Shown: piece after piece, positions 4,103 through 51,081 of the stretch | How the letters are laid out: each line of letters starts with the position of its first letter | Numbering within the stretch: the first letter of the stretch is position 1 | Assembly (NCBI RefSeq): GCF_001421485.1 | Contig: NZ_LMKK01000001.1 | Location: 563,717 to 627,716, forward strand | Direction: 5' to 3' | DNA: 64,000 bases | DNA from: Agreia sp. Leaf210 | GTDB lineage: Bacteria > Actinomycetota > Actinomycetes > Actinomycetales > Microbacteriaceae | The notes under the pieces: generated by a model | What the model was told of the DNA's origin: nothing | Databases searched by the model: none | Seen by the model: only the letters and a program-made list of their open reading frames with translations | Position numbers and translations under genes: made by a program

Positions 4103-4112
4103 GTAGTCTCGC

Positions 4113-4168
4113 TCCCTGAGCTTGTCGAAGGGGCAGCCGCTGACGGTTCCCTTCGACAAGCTCAGGGA
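4113..4168. repeat. Perfect 20-bp inverted repeat (REP-like / bidirectional terminator)
   Basis: Arms 4113-4132 and 4149-4168 are exact reverse complements (core CCCTGAGCTTGTCGAAGGG) with a 16-base loop, placed between two convergent genes, so it could end transcription from both sides. A single arm with one substitution (CAAG to CGAG) recurs at 16752-16775 beside deoA/cdd, which makes it look like a dispersed repeat rather than a unique terminator. Motifs of this TTCGACAAGCTCAGGG type recur in many high-GC genomes as far as I recall. Confidence 0.85.
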
Positions 4169-4206
4169 ACGGAATCCGCCTGCCTTCGTCGCGGGGCTAC
4201 TCGATG

Positions 4207-27346: not shown

Positions 27347-29149
27347 ATGACCGAGTACGCAGACGGATCCGTCGTAGACGGAGTTCACTACCACCAGTTC
27401 GACATCGTCATCGTGGGCGCCGGCGGCGCCGGCATGAGGGCGGCCATCGAGGCCGGCCCCAAGGCGAAGACGGCAGTCATCTCGAAGCTCTACCCGACCC
27501 GCAGCCACACCGGTGCGGCGCAGGGCGGCATGGCAGCCGCCCTCGCGAACGTCGAGGAAGACAGCTGGGAGTGGCACACCTTCGACACCGTCAAGGGCGG
27601 CGACTACCTCGTCGACCAGGATGCCGCGGAGATCCTGGCCAAGGAGGCCATCGACGCGGTCATCGACCTCGAGAACATGGGCCTGCCGTTCAACCGCACG
27701 CCCGAGGGCAAGATCGACCAGCGACGCTTCGGTGGCCACACCCGCGATCACGGCAAGGCGCCCGTTCGCCGTGCCTGCTACGCCGCCGACCGCACGGGTC
27801 ACATGATCCTGCAGACGCTCTATCAGAACTGCGTCAAGTTCGGTATCAACTTCTTCAACGAGTACTACGTGCTCGACCTCGTGATGGTCAGCGACGGATT
27901 CGGCGGACAGCAGCCGGCCGGTGTCGTGGCCTTCGAACTCGCCACGGGCGAGATCCACGTCTTCCAGTCGAAGGCCGTGATCTTCGCAACCGGTGGATTC
28001 GGCAAGATCTACAAGACCACGTCCAACGCGCACACCCTCACCGGCGACGGCGTCGGAATCATCTGGCGTAAGGGTCTGCCGCTCGAGGACATGGAGTTCT
28101 TCCAGTTCCACCCGACCGGCCTGGCCGGCCTGGGCATCCTGCTCTCCGAAGCGGCCCGCGGCGAGGGCGCGATCCTTCGCAACAGCGAGGGCGAGCGTTT
28201 TATGGAGCGCTACGCGCCCACGATCAAGGACCTCGCGCCTCGCGACATCGTCGCCCGCTGCATGGCGCTCGAGATCCGTGAGGGACGAGGCGCTGGTCCG
28301 CACAAGGACTACGTCTACCTCGACATCACCCACCTCGACCCCGCGGTCATCGACGCCAAGCTGCCCGACATCACCGAGTTCGCTCGCACCTACCTCGGAG
28401 TCGAGCCGTACACCGAGCCGGTCCCCGTCCTTCCCACCGCGCACTACGCGATGGGCGGAATCCCCACCAACGTCCAGGCAGAGGTTCTCTCAGACAACAC
28501 CACCGTCGTTCCCGGCCTGTACGCGGCCGGCGAGTGCGCCTGCGTCTCGGTGCACGGCTCCAACCGACTGGGTACGAACTCGCTGCTCGACATCAACGTC
28601 TTCGGCAAGCGCGCCGGCAACGCGGCGGCCGAGTACGTGCAGACCGCGCCGTGGGTCGAACTGCCCGACGACCCGGCGGCCGGCGTGCGCGAGCTCATCG
28701 AGAACGCCCGCAACTCGAACGGCACGGAGCGCATCGCGGTCATCCGGCGCGAGCTGCAGGAGTCGATGGACCGCAACGCCCAGGTCTTCAGAACCGAGGA
28801 GAGCCTCACCGAGGTGACCGAGGTCATCCACAACCTGCGTGAGCGCTACAAGAACATCCTCGTTCAAGACAAGGGCAAGCGGTTCAACACCGACCTGCTC
28901 GAGGCCGTCGAGCTGGGCTTCCTGCTCGACCTGGCCGAGGTGGTCGTGTACTCGGCGCGCAACCGCAAGGAGAGCCGCGGCGCTCACATGCGCGAGGACT
29001 TCCCGACCCGCGACGACGCGAACCACATGCAGCACACGATGGCCTATCTCTCGGGCGACCCCATGTCGGCCGACGCAGGAGACCACATCAGACTCGACTG
29101 GAAGCCGGTCGTCGTGACCCGTTACCAGCCCATGGAGAGGAAGTACTAA
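27347..29149 (+). CDS. sdhA: Succinate dehydrogenase flavoprotein subunit
   Basis: A 600-residue FAD subunit oxidising succinate to fumarate. FAD-binding [13 protein letters not shown], the covalent-flavin histidine context [16 protein letters not shown], substrate loop [20 protein letters not shown] (H and R residues), FHPTGLAG, and the C-terminal [21 protein letters not shown] are all intact. Electrons pass to SdhB, then to menaquinone through SdhCD. Eleven bases separate it from sdhD; its TAA overlaps the sdhB ATG by one base. Confidence 0.97.
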
Positions 29150-29907
29150 TGAGTACAGCAACCCTGGATTCTCCGCCGGCACCCGCTGACGACGTCATCC
29201 CCACCTTCACCGTCACGCTCATCATCCGTCGGTTCAACCCCGACACCGACGACGAGCCCACGTGGCAGAACTTCGATGTCGAGATGTACCCCACCGATCG
29301 CGTGCTCGATGCCCTGCACAAGATCAAGTGGGAGCAGGACGGTTCACTCACGTTCCGTCGCTCGTGCGCGCACGGCATCTGCGGGTCGGATGCCATGCGT
29401 ATCAACGGCCGCAACCGCCTGGCCTGCAAGACGCTCATCAAAGACCTCGACATCACGAAGCCCATCTACGTGGAGGCCATCAAGGGCCTGCCGCTCGAGA
29501 AGGACCTCGTCGTAGACATGGAGCCGTTCTTCGCGTCGTTCCGCGAGGTGCAGCCGTTCCTCATCGCTTCGTCGAAGCCCGAGAAGGAGCGCCTGCAGTC
29601 GGCGACGGAGCGCGCACGCTTCGACGACACCACGAAGTGCATCCTCTGCGCCGCGTGCACGTCGAGCTGCCCGGTCTTCTGGACCGACGGCCAGTACTTC
29701 GGCCCGGCCGCCATCGTCAACGCTCACCGCTTCATCTTCGACAGCCGCGATGAGGGCGCCAACGTGCGTCTCGACATCCTCAACGACAAAGAGGGCGTGT
29801 GGCGCTGCCGCACCACCTTCAACTGCTCCGAGGCATGCCCGCGCGGAATCCAGGTGACCCAGGCCATCGCCGAGGTCAAGCAGGCGATCATGCGGGGCAA
29901 GCCCTAG
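29149..29907 (+). CDS. sdhB: Succinate dehydrogenase iron-sulfur subunit
   Basis: A 252-residue Fe-S subunit with all three clusters: [2Fe-2S] ligands in SCAHGICGSDAM and RLACKTL, [4Fe-4S] CILCAACTSSCP, and [3Fe-4S] CRTTFNCSEACPRGI. The typical PIYVEAIKGLPLEKDLVVDM segment links the two domains. Last gene of the operon; a 72-bp hairpin repeat begins four bases after its stop and may serve as its terminator. Confidence 0.97.
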   Translation: MSTATLDSPPAPADDVIPTFTVTLIIRRFNPDTDDEPTWQNFDVEMYPTDRVLDALHKIKWEQDGSLTFRRSCAHGICGSDAMRINGRNRLACKTLIKDLDITKPIYVEAIKGLPLEKDLVVDMEPFFASFREVQPFLIASSKPEKERLQSATERARFDDTTKCILCAACTSSCPVFWTDGQYFGPAAIVNAHRFIFDSRDEGANVRLDILNDKEGVWRCRTTFNCSEACPRGIQVTQAIAEVKQAIMRGKP

Positions 29908-29910
29908 CGA

Positions 29911-29982
29911 CTGCTCTCCTGAGTGTGCAGAAACGGCCCGTTGCGTGAAGACGCACGGGCCGTCTCTGCACACTCGACACCC
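29911..29982. repeat. 72-bp hairpin repeat, copy 1 (left flank of DUF559 gene)
   Basis: Nearly a complete palindrome: GAGTGTGCAGA (29921-29931) pairs with TCTGCACACTC (29964-29974), ACGGCCCG with CGGGCCGT, and TGCGT with ACGCA around a GAAG loop, about 25 paired bases with a bulged T. Copy 2 at 30959-31030 matches 64 of 72 positions in the same orientation. Confidence 0.9.
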
Positions 29983-29983
29983 G

Positions 29984-30901
29984 TCATTGACGCCAACCCT
30001 TGGCAAGGAGGGCGTTCCGGACCCGAGTCACTATGTCGGCACGGTCGGCATTCATGTGCTCCTTGAGGACTCGAACCACTCTCCAGTCGTTATCGGAGAG
30101 CTCTTCTAGACGGTTTACATCTCTGTGGAATTGGCGGCGGTCATCGGCATGCTGTGAGCCGTCGTATTCGACGAGCACCTTGTGACGGCGGTAGACGAGG
30201 TCGCCTCTGCCGATGAATCTGCCGTTCTTTCCGAATACGTCGATGTTCAGTTCCGGCTGCGGCAGACCTCCGCGGATCAGAAGCAGACGAAGCTCGGTCT
30301 CCCTGGGCGACTCCGAACCTGGCCGCACCAACTCGAGTGCAGCCACCAGCGAGCGGGAGCCTCGAACTCCTCGTCGAGAGTCGACGGCTCGCCGCAGCTG
30401 ACCTGTCGTCTTCTGCGGATACCTGCCGCCGACGAGATGGTCACCTGCAATGACGAGCTCGTCAATCGAGAGCAGCGTCGCGCATTGGCACCACGCGTCG
30501 AGGATCGATACGACGCGTAGTCGCCGCAGCGACGCAGGCTCGACGGTGCCCGGCTTGAGCCGATGTCCCACGATGCCCACCACCCGCGGGCTCTGCGCTG
30601 GCGAGAACGTCGATACATGCAGTGGTGCGGTGTCGAATCGGCGAGGCAGCGGTATTCCGTGCAGCGCGGCGGCGGTGATGTGGGAGAACAACTGGCCGGG
30701 CGGCATGCGCACCGCGTACGCGCGACACCGCAACCAGACATCGCCGGCGTCGTGGTCTGCGGCCGAAACCCGGACTCCGTGGAAAGGGGCGGTCAGATCC
30801 TGTCGTCTGAGCCGGCCCGGGGAGACTCCGAGATCGAGGGCTGCACGCACCGAGAAGGCTCGCCCGTCGAGCCCATCGGGTAGATCGCGCCGTCGAGTCA
30901 T
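29984..30901 (-). CDS. AbiEi-like N-terminus with DUF559 (Vsr-like PD-(D/E)XK) endonuclease domain
   Basis: A 305-residue protein. Residues about 15-50 resemble the AbiEi-type winged-helix domain (FSVRAALDLGVSPGRLRRQ), a middle domain contains FSHITAAALHGIPLP (70-85), and the C-terminus (about 195-305) is a DUF559 nuclease-like domain: SPRETELRLLLIRGGLP (E201/E203), RGDLVYRRHKVLVEYDGSQH (D234, E245, D247) and LEELSDNDWRVVRVLK, the expected Asp-Glu metal-site pattern. Start ATG 30899-30901 gives MTRRRDLPDG; a longer upstream extension would read through a repeat. The gene fills the space between two 72-bp hairpin repeats, its stop two bases from copy 1. Biological role of this widespread actinobacterial family is unknown to me. 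Confidence 0.85.
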   Translation of the reverse strand: MTRRRDLPDGLDGRAFSVRAALDLGVSPGRLRRQDLTAPFHGVRVSAADHDAGDVWLRCRAYAVRMPPGQLFSHITAAALHGIPLPRRFDTAPLHVSTFSPAQSPRVVGIVGHRLKPGTVEPASLRRLRVVSILDAWCQCATLLSIDELVIAGDHLVGGRYPQKTTGQLRRAVDSRRGVRGSRSLVAALELVRPGSESPRETELRLLLIRGGLPQPELNIDVFGKNGRFIGRGDLVYRRHKVLVEYDGSQHADDRRQFHRDVNRLEELSDNDWRVVRVLKEHMNADRADIVTRVRNALLAKGWRQ

Positions 30902-30958
30902 GCCTCGATGATGCCGATGTCGTCGCGCGCCCGCGAAAGTTATCCCCACATCGCTCCG

Positions 30959-31030
30959 CTGCTCTCCCGAGTGTGCAGAAACGGCCCGCTGCGTGAAGAC
31001 GCACGGGCCGTTTTCGCACACTCGGCGCCT
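30959..31030. repeat. 72-bp hairpin repeat, copy 2 (right flank of DUF559 gene)
   Basis: Same orientation as copy 1 with eight substitutions, mostly transitions; the stem (GAGTGTGC ... GCACACTC, GGCCCG ... CGGGCC, TGCGT ... ACGCA, loop GAAG) is preserved. Lies 57 bases upstream of the nuclease start codon and just before the yihY promoter. Confidence 0.9.
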
Positions 31031-31097: not shown

Positions 31098-32207
31098 GTG
31101 ACCAACAGCAGCGACGACTCCGACAAACCGGCCACCGGCATCCCCGCCCTCGTGCAGAGGGTGATGAAGCTCAAGCCCGTCCGGGTGTTCCAGCACTACG
31201 CGTCGAACGGCGGACCGCTGATGGCGGCCGGCATGTCGTATCAGGCCCTGTTCGCAGTGTTCGCCGCTCTCTGGGCCGGGTTCTCGATCGCCGGGCTCGT
31301 GCTCGCCTCGAACAGACCGCTGCTCGAGGAGTTGATCACGCTCATCGGCAGCGCGGTTCCGGGCCTCATCGGAGAAGGCGGCGCCGTCGACGCGGATGCC
31401 CTGCTGAACACACCCGCCCTCAGCTGGTCGGGCGCCATTGCCCTCGTCGGACTCGCGTTCACGGCCCTCGGGTGGCTCGCGTCCGCGCGCGACGCCATCC
31501 GGCGCATCTTCTCGGTCGGCCCCGACACGACGTTCTTTCTACTCCTCAAACTGAAGGATGCCGGACTCGCCATCGGGTTCGGTATCGTGCTCGTCGTCTC
31601 GGCCGGCATCAGCATCGGCAGCACCACGCTCATCGGTCTCGCCTTCGACCTGATCGGGGTCGACAACACCTCGGGCTTCGCGGTGGTCGTGGCACGCATC
31701 GTCGGGCTGCTGATCGCGTTCGCACTGGACACCCTGGTGCTGCTCGTCTTCTACCGGGTGCTGACCGGTATCAAGATTCCCTTCCGACGCGTGATCAGCG
31801 GAGCGCTCATCGGGGCTGCGGCGCTGGGCCTGCTGAAGGCACTCGGTGGTCTGCTGCTCGGAGGGGCGAGCAACAACCCCCTCATCGCCTCGTTCGCCGT
31901 GATCGCCGGTCTGTTGATCTTCTTCAACCTCATCTGCCAGGTCATACTCATCACGGCCGCGTGGATCTCCGTCGGAGTCACCGACGTGGGCCTCGACGTG
32001 CGCGGACTCTCGCCCGAACAGCTCGACGCGGAGGCGCAGGTGAAACAGGCGGAGGCCCGAGTGGTGATCGCCGCGGCCGAGCGGGCGCGTCTCGAAGACG
32101 AGCTCCGGGATGCTCGCGGCCTGCGCCGCCGAGGCATCTCTCGACGTCTGAAGAACGCCGTCCGCGAGGAGTCGCGGTTGAAGAACGAGACCCCTCCTCC
32201 TCGCTAA
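31098..32207 (+). CDS. YihY/BrkB family inner-membrane protein
   Basis: A 369-residue polytopic protein with about six hydrophobic segments between residues 45 and 300 and the family motif GGPLMAAGMSYQALFAVFAA near residue 38, then GLAFTALGWLASARDAIRRIF and FYRVLTGIKIPFRRVISGAL. The C-terminus (about 300-369) is a charged coiled-coil-like tail (AQVKQAEARVVIAAAERARLEDEL). Members are often mislabelled RNase BN; function is not firmly established. GTG start fixed by the TAGGGT-N6 spacing. Ends ten bases before xthA, in the same direction. Confidence 0.88.
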   Translation: MTNSSDDSDKPATGIPALVQRVMKLKPVRVFQHYASNGGPLMAAGMSYQALFAVFAALWAGFSIAGLVLASNRPLLEELITLIGSAVPGLIGEGGAVDADALLNTPALSWSGAIALVGLAFTALGWLASARDAIRRIFSVGPDTTFFLLLKLKDAGLAIGFGIVLVVSAGISIGSTTLIGLAFDLIGVDNTSGFAVVVARIVGLLIAFALDTLVLLVFYRVLTGIKIPFRRVISGALIGAAALGLLKALGGLLLGGASNNPLIASFAVIAGLLIFFNLICQVILITAAWISVGVTDVGLDVRGLSPEQLDAEAQVKQAEARVVIAAAERARLEDELRDARGLRRRGISRRLKNAVREESRLKNETPPPR

Positions 32208-51011: not shown

Positions 51012-51033
51012 GCCCCGTCACCGCACGCATCCA

Positions 51034-51076
51034 CGAGCCTGCGAGCCGCCGATCTATCCGGCGGTTCGCAGGCTCG
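51034..51076 (+). terminator. 18-bp stem hairpin downstream of MFS gene
   Basis: CGAGCCTGCGAGCCGCCG pairs with CGGCGGTTCGCAGGCTCG (one G-T wobble) around loop ATCTATC, starting 22 bases after the MFS stop. No T-run. Confidence 0.75.
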
Positions 51077-51081
51077 CGGCG

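Follow-up and report, generated by a model that had tools for sequence, protein, structure and literature searches.

Palindromes around DUF559 genes in Agreia: a possible REP-like system with an unrelated enzyme

In one chromosome of Agreia, a bacterium of soils and plants, a gene for a DUF559 protein lies between sdhB and a gene for a YihY/BrkB-like membrane protein, with a copy of one hairpin at each of its ends. Are these hairpins terminators, operators, or parts of a unit that has moved? The window (the whole stretch of DNA that was analysed, 64,000 nt of the 3.54-Mb host genome, G000) had been read in an initial annotation as showing the layout of REP sequences around a RAYT transposase, with a Vsr/DUF559-type nuclease as the cargo. 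The features concerned are listed below.

29149–29907, plus strand: sdhB, conserved left neighbour (context)
29911–29982, no strand: stop-side (downstream) hairpin copy; palindrome core 29921–29975, outer arms GAGTGTGCAG/CTGCACACTC
29984–30901, minus strand: DUF559 (MTES_1575-like) nuclease gene, 305 aa, from a family with AbiEi-like members (ORF and Pfam)
30008–30313, minus strand: putative C-terminal PD-(D/E)XK-type domain, residues ~197–298 (E201, D234, E245, D247, D261); limits approximate, from Pfam and invariant columns
30902–30958, minus strand: 57-bp gap from the start codon to the upstream hairpin (sequence reading)
30959–31030, no strand: start-side (upstream) hairpin copy; core 30967–31025
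31098–32207, plus strand: YihY/BrkB-like membrane protein gene, conserved right neighbour (context)

The gene and its two hairpins

The framing described in the initial annotation is real. The two 72-bp copies lie in direct orientation and are identical at 64 of 72 positions; RNA folding gave −47.8 and −49.4 kcal/mol (z −9.3 and −8.6), and none of 200 shuffles did as well. The spacing of 2 and 57 bp first given holds on the start side, while on the stop side a single base separates the left copy from the stop codon. The 57-bp gap would leave room for the nuclease gene's own promoter. The stop-side copy is flanked by convergent genes (sdhB and the nuclease gene) and the start-side copy by divergent ones; a hairpin of the stop-side type also follows sdhB in G001 and G002, and stands alone in G005. 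A search of the host genome at E ≤ 0.001 returned no copy of the 72-mer beyond these two. A repeat confined to this locus had been named beforehand as evidence against a mobile unit, and for the window hairpin taken by itself that is the outcome.

Two other palindromes in the window may be recorded here. The first, at 4110–4171, is bounded by a TTCGACAAGCTCAGGG arm at either side; nine loci, some of them overlapping, also contain this 16-mer, so this may be another dispersed palindrome family, to which no gene is assigned. The second is a strong palindrome (CCACGAGCCTGCGAGCCGCCG...CGGCGGTTCGCAGGCTCGCGG) at 51031–51079.

Pfam places the window protein in DUF559 (E 2.9e-6), with MTES_1575 below the cut-off; both matches fall in the C-terminal third and span residues 234–298. 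When 27 Agreia homologues are aligned, E201, D234 and D261 do not vary at all and E245 hardly does. The acidic residues originally singled out are therefore conserved in part: E201, D234 and E245 stand as candidate catalytic residues, while E203 and D247 are neither invariant nor near-invariant. Pfam AbiEi_4 matches six of the 27 members and the PADLOC AbiEi models up to 17, with no match from either source for the window protein itself. Similarity to solved structures was weak (best 3hrl, an endonuclease-like protein, E 0.087; PvuRts1I, E ~0.9) and a two-sequence AlphaFold model reached a pLDDT of 34, so that it is the family matches, together with residue conservation, that support the assignment as a nuclease. 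On the best reading of these sequences, proteins of the family pair an AbiEi-like part with a PD-(D/E)XK-type (DUF559) nuclease-like part. Homologues in plasmid and phage records are few and distant (five plasmid records and one unannotated phage record).

Hairpin pairs around DUF559 genes and their gene-less copies

The initial annotation had also proposed looking for repeats around other DUF559 genes, and many of these do possess hairpin pairs of their own. A homology search of eight Agreia genomes gave 63 matches, 54 of which were used as loci; those left out were two fragments of G007:C110 (L030), the second fragment in three cases of a split gene, and four matches whose intervals (L135, L138, L140 and L143) were added later for occupancy. 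The upstream and downstream flanks of the same gene matched with a score of at least 18 at 37 of the 53 loci usable in the flank test, against 0.9% of flank pairs taken from different sites. The corresponding control on sdhB, with 30 loci whose sdhB ends were located, 28 usable and two dropped as short, yielded 0/28 at that score, the highest being 15.8; an earlier version of the control on 30 loci contained one score of 131, which was ascribed to a contig-edge locus. In 29 other genera of the family, flanks matched at 33 of 68 usable loci out of 69, with a null of 1.3%; these 33 were taken without a hairpin filter and include some matches that are short or extend into the coding sequence (e.g. 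L220, L227, L236). Bracketing is hence a property of the majority of Agreia loci and of about half of those in other genera. A significant flank match was absent from 16 of 53 and 35 of 68 loci, respectively, and failed at site A in all five loci, at C in four of five and at N in two of three. At site N, G001 and G002 retain the stop-side hairpin, and their start-side hairpin shares little except the outer arms.

The 54 loci map to 13 shared and five single chromosomal sites, and each shared site is occupied in three to five of the eight genomes, counting the four added intervals at sites L and M. Hairpin sequences are private, differing between gene lineages; the clearest hairpins common to different sites are those of site E and L040, whose proteins are 68–71% identical. 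A broad coevolution of hairpin and protein across sites was considered and rejected (Spearman −0.04 over 5,106 pairs). Separately, both flanks of the DUF559 gene L276 (G052) carry a GGTCTCGATACG...GCTACTCGACC repeat, a motif also seen in Agreia L116, L024, L096 and L179; we take it to be common in Actinobacteria, where it may represent a widespread palindrome of this kind.

Palindromes of the family measure 55–70 bp, and those of several lineages are also scattered, without a gene, in intergenic gaps that are mainly convergent among the copies examined. This dispersal and its link with the presence of the gene are clearest for type K. Three genomes, G001, G003 and G004, have a K gene, and a genome-wide search located the K hairpin there at 17, 15 and 14 distinct places, respectively, two of which in each genome flank that gene; in G000, G002, G005, G006 and G007, which lack it, there were 1, 2, 0, 0 and 0. 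The reading frame of the K gene is intact in G003 and G004, but in G001, the genome with most K copies, a stop codon interrupts it. Among 27 K-type loci, 23 align as a 60-nt element (L147, L148 and L152, from genomes without a K gene, and L165 were left out) with a mean column identity of 92%, variable internal-loop columns and a consensus that starts TGTTGC, and the copies sit in unrelated flanks. Selection for pairing within K copies was rejected, no base pair having changed on both sides, a result for which 92% identity leaves little power; judged from the sequences, this lack of paired changes would be consistent with decay after spread. Convergent-gene gaps hold 11 of 14 K-type places according to a GC3-based gene call, with two of the 14 representing one orthologous gap and some neighbours lying several hundred bp away. 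The six solo K copies of G001 have mixed counterparts: L165 (gap s4) and L168 (site C) lie in gaps that also hold a K copy in G003 or G004, L170 has a neighbouring gene in common with a G003 copy, and for L155, L158 and L162 there was no counterpart in other genomes among the matches listed. The spread thus looks partly older than these species and partly not.

Type H behaves similarly, with solo copies at no fewer than 18, 16, 16 and 14 places, respectively, in G000, G001, G003 and G004, all of which have the H gene, and also at no fewer than 11 in G005, where the H site is empty, and at least one in G002. Types M, E, L, D and J each have a few solo copies among the matches listed, including M-type copies in G001, where the M site is empty. 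These hand counts are lower bounds from a multi-type search in which 40 candidates, from 71–109 found, were scored in each of G000–G005; G006 gave four hits, outside the matches listed. A DUF559 site may also house the hairpin of another type: site C, without its gene, has a K-type hairpin in G003 and G001, both of which have the K gene elsewhere, and site L, without its gene, an H-type hairpin in G003. A solo palindrome at the gene-less site H of G006 (L124) has arms, GAGCA..GCGTC / GACGCAA.CTGCTCT, that by eye recur in the hairpin close to L024 (G003), a single DUF559 gene, and is possibly one more solo copy with its cognate. A known RNA family was also sought for the palindromes and rejected, the search giving just two microRNA matches far below the gathering score.

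An unbiased scan of an independent genus approaches the question from the opposite side. Within 800 kb of G014, 76 strong palindromes included four repeated families of 9, 4, 3 and 2 members. The two-member family is low-complexity sequence, taken as coding; the three non-coding families all match flanks of G014 DUF559 genes. Those of four and three members comprise the flanks of the sample's two long DUF559 genes plus two and one solo copies, respectively (one of the two, the palindrome at 463718, is tied to its family through one flank copy, the other flank copy scoring 11, no match). In the largest family, each of the nine palindromes scores 29–47 against a flank of L222, a third DUF559 gene 2.4 Mb beyond the sample, the next of the 76 palindromes scoring 10.8. 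A shorter third DUF559-like ORF inside the sample is without a repeated palindrome. Six of eight G014 solo copies lie between convergent genes.

Several explanations other than mobility compete at this point. Stable hairpins between convergent genes could be plain bidirectional terminators that were duplicated or converted around the gene, as the initial annotation had allowed, and terminator-like hairpins of other types do occupy some gaps (e.g. at site G, and after sdhB of G006). However, the genes on either side of the window's upstream copy are divergent, some orthologous gaps are without copies, and sdhB, the control, gave no matching flanks in 28 loci. Because the hairpins form dispersed sequence families (as in the K alignment), concentrated in certain genomes, we reject terminators as the sole explanation and consider it highly improbable.

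The placement of the hairpins, among the matches listed commonly 0–10 bp past the stop codon and ending ~30–115 bp before the start, lends itself to another account, in which the protein would be an AbiEi-type DNA-binding regulator or defence nuclease, the palindromes its operators, the upstream copy a means of autoregulation, and the dispersed copies further sites spread in some other way. The upstream position in many loci and the AbiEi models that match up to 17 of 27 members agree with it, as does the binding of inverted repeats by AbiEi and Rv2827c, each at its own promoter (as described in PMC7319586). An operator has no obvious role just past the stop codon, however, where the second copy lies; solo copies occur mostly between convergent genes, both for K and in G014, rather than at promoters, and copies of the same type descend from one sequence, without compensatory change. 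We regard this account as rather unlikely.

It is also conceivable, if distinctly unlikely, that another enzyme or host repair moves the palindromes and that DUF559 genes merely hitch-hike between two copies. Orphan copies without a gene would fit, as would the abundance of K copies in G001 despite its interrupted gene; the window type, moreover, has no dispersed copies, and we infer rather than observe any action of the protein on palindromes. Against it, every palindrome type corresponds to a single gene lineage, copies of the K type follow the presence of the K gene, and every non-coding repeated family of the unbiased G014 sample belongs to DUF559 genes. A Y1/HUH transposase (PF01797, Transposase_17/Y1_Tnp), moreover, was found in none of the eight Agreia genomes; in a control on 14 genomes the same model matched six, including E. 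coli. A RAYT was rejected as the partner of the Agreia palindromes on these grounds.

Orthologous gaps differ in palindromes and genes

Four orthologous gaps were aligned (s2, s3, s4 and s7; s1, s5 and s6 were left out), and palindromes are present in some genomes and absent from others. Gap s2, between convergent genes, holds a K palindrome in G001 and only a few bases in G000 and G005. At s4 a K-type palindrome is present in G001–G004, degraded in G000 and absent from G005. At s7, with types assigned by eye, G001 has the K type, G000 a K-like remnant, G002 and G005 an L-type palindrome, and G003, G004 and G006 none of these three; G002 and G005 both carry an L-lineage gene (L138 and L135). 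Inspection of the four aligned gaps by eye revealed no target-site duplication or other insertion footprint.

The window locus itself varies in the same manner. Between sdhB and yihY, the gene is present in G000, G001 and G002; in G005 a lone hairpin stands without it; and both are missing from G003, G004 and G006 (G007 lay outside the comparison). The possibility, raised at the outset, that the gene is fixed here in all relatives is therefore set aside, and a single repeat at an empty site, which was to be looked for, does exist, in the sister species G005. The hairpin there combines one copy's left flank with the other copy's right flank, and G000 pairs with G005 in a small tree of seven genomes; recombination between the two copies, with loss of the gene, is accordingly the simplest history. 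Where the gene persists it has diverged quickly, site-N nuclease orthologues sharing 75–77% protein identity vs 92% for the neighbouring YihY. Sites A, C and K contain DUF559 copies that are broken or split (L016/L019, L046, L078, L083 and L088), which is what would be expected of genes in a cycle of gain, decay and loss.

Patchy occupancy invites a further explanation, that of a site-specific homing-endonuclease gene, each lineage of which invades one intergenic target, with the palindrome as the duplicated target. Each shared lineage does occupy one site in three to five of eight genomes, broken copies occur, a single palindrome was left in G005, and Vsr-like nucleases are known as homing enzymes. 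The gene-less intervals tell against it. Across all sites there are 37 of them, without any DUF559-like ORF, and for the ten hairpin types tested (A, F and G were not among these) the site's own type was found in two (N in G005 and J in G006), another type in three, and none in 32; most empty sites are hence without the supposed homing target. Ten of the 37 were placed by one flank (L106, L107, L112, L121, L126, L128, L136, L137, L139 and L142). Since homing alone would also leave the dispersed solo palindromes unexplained, we hold it to be quite improbable. Some gene-less intervals are long, with ~3.5 kb between the flanks in L113 (G005) and L114 (G001) at site D and ~1.5 kb in L129–L131 at site K; these are longer than an empty site and so probably contain other genes.

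The explanation we favour places the window locus within a large family of palindrome–nuclease elements, and we think it probable that this family, including the mechanism proposed below, constitutes a REP/RAYT-like pair with a non-homologous enzyme. AbiEi antitoxins recognise inverted repeats at the promoter of their own gene; by analogy, the AbiEi-like part would recognise the cognate palindrome. The nuclease part might then nick or cut DNA at the palindrome or at its target, and repair could copy the palindrome into new sites and, rarely, the whole palindrome–gene–palindrome unit. Recombination between the two flanking copies would delete the gene and leave one palindrome, as in G005. Recognition, cutting, copying by repair and loss of this kind would together work like a REP/RAYT pair; that the nuclease is what moves the hairpins is our inference. 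The REP/RAYT-like layout with Vsr/DUF559-type cargo that was initially suggested is thus borne out for the family, through bracketing, dispersal, patchy occupancy and the G005 hairpin, but not as a self-propagating unit at the window locus, whose hairpin has no other copies. Weighing against the favoured explanation are the orphan copies (H-type in G005 and M-type in G001, both with the site empty), the stop codon in the K gene of G001 and copy numbers of up to ~20, below those of most classical REPs.

A broader statement has, in our estimation, a somewhat better than even chance of being correct: that AbiEi–DUF559 proteins are nucleases specific for palindromes and copy their own hairpins to other places in the chromosome, forming a second, independently evolved bacterial REP system in which a PD-(D/E)XK-type enzyme takes the place of a tyrosine HUH transposase and one genome holds many parallel private pairs. 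Its novelty rests on the unrelated enzyme and would be smaller if the protein proved to be only a passenger or a regulator. To our knowledge, no enzyme family other than the RAYTs is accepted as a dedicated partner of bacterial extragenic palindromes, and in the open-access literature (subscription papers and preprints lay outside our scope) we found no report linking DUF559/AbiEi genes with flanking palindromes. If the statement is true, repeats that occur without a RAYT may be explained by a second gene family, not homologous to RAYTs, in which each lineage is tied to a private palindrome; DUF559/MTES_1575 proteins, currently of unknown function or labelled AbiEi, would gain a testable role; and a new family of possibly site-selective nucleases would be available with many natural enzyme–target pairs. 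Given the pairing of gene and palindrome, the flanks of each gene predict which DNA its protein targets, and bench scientists could test this directly.

Comparison with known systems

Vsr-like/DUF559 nucleases, which include the EDxHD homing endonucleases, belong to the same broad superfamily and share the patchy, site-specific occupancy and the decayed copies. The genes described here differ in being intergenic and in having palindromes of their own, which also occur without the gene.

With AbiE type IV toxin–antitoxin systems the family shares matches of many members to AbiEi models and inverted-repeat DNA near the gene. It differs in its nuclease-like C-terminus and in palindromes that stand at both ends and, for several types, are dispersed; beside the window gene, whose neighbours are sdhB and the BrkB/YihY gene, there is no AbiEii (DUF1814) toxin. 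AbiEi and Rv2827c each bind the inverted repeats of their own promoter but not those of the other (PMC7319586), and this offers a mechanism by which palindromes might be recognised.

CGTC-tagged REPs, such as rickettsial palindromic elements, are reported in PMC3733652 as lacking a dedicated transposase. They resemble the present palindromes in being dispersed without a RAYT; the K consensus, however, has a CGTC tag at neither end, and a candidate dedicated gene exists here.

Classical REPs are partnered by Y1/HUH RAYTs. The hallmarks given for RAYTs in PMC2817692 include two flanking REPs, coevolution, fast evolution and an abundance tied to the gene, and those given for classical REPs include a GT(A/G)G head and a copy number usually above 100. 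Agreia genes of the family likewise lie between two palindromes of their own type and, at site N, evolve faster than the neighbouring gene; intergenic copies are dispersed, with an abundance tied to the cognate gene (cleanly for K, largely for H, given the G005 orphans), and cognate palindromes are dispersed in G014 as well, unlike the window's own type. Coevolution is mirrored weakly (Spearman −0.04 across sites), and the 'always flanked' stated for RAYTs fails, since a flank match is missing from the rest of the 53 and 68 loci. There are also differences. The enzyme is of DUF559/PD-(D/E)XK type with AbiEi-like parts and not a Y1/HUH transposase; the K consensus, from 23 copies, has no GTAG head; palindromes measure ~55–70 bp rather than 20–40; they occupy ~1–20 places per genome (14–17 for K where its gene is present) rather than usually more than 100; and flanking copies are direct as well as inverted, in actinobacterial hosts. 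Because enzyme, head and copy number do not fit, we do not file the DUF559 system as a RAYT. The pattern looks like a means of spreading small mobile DNA that evolved independently.
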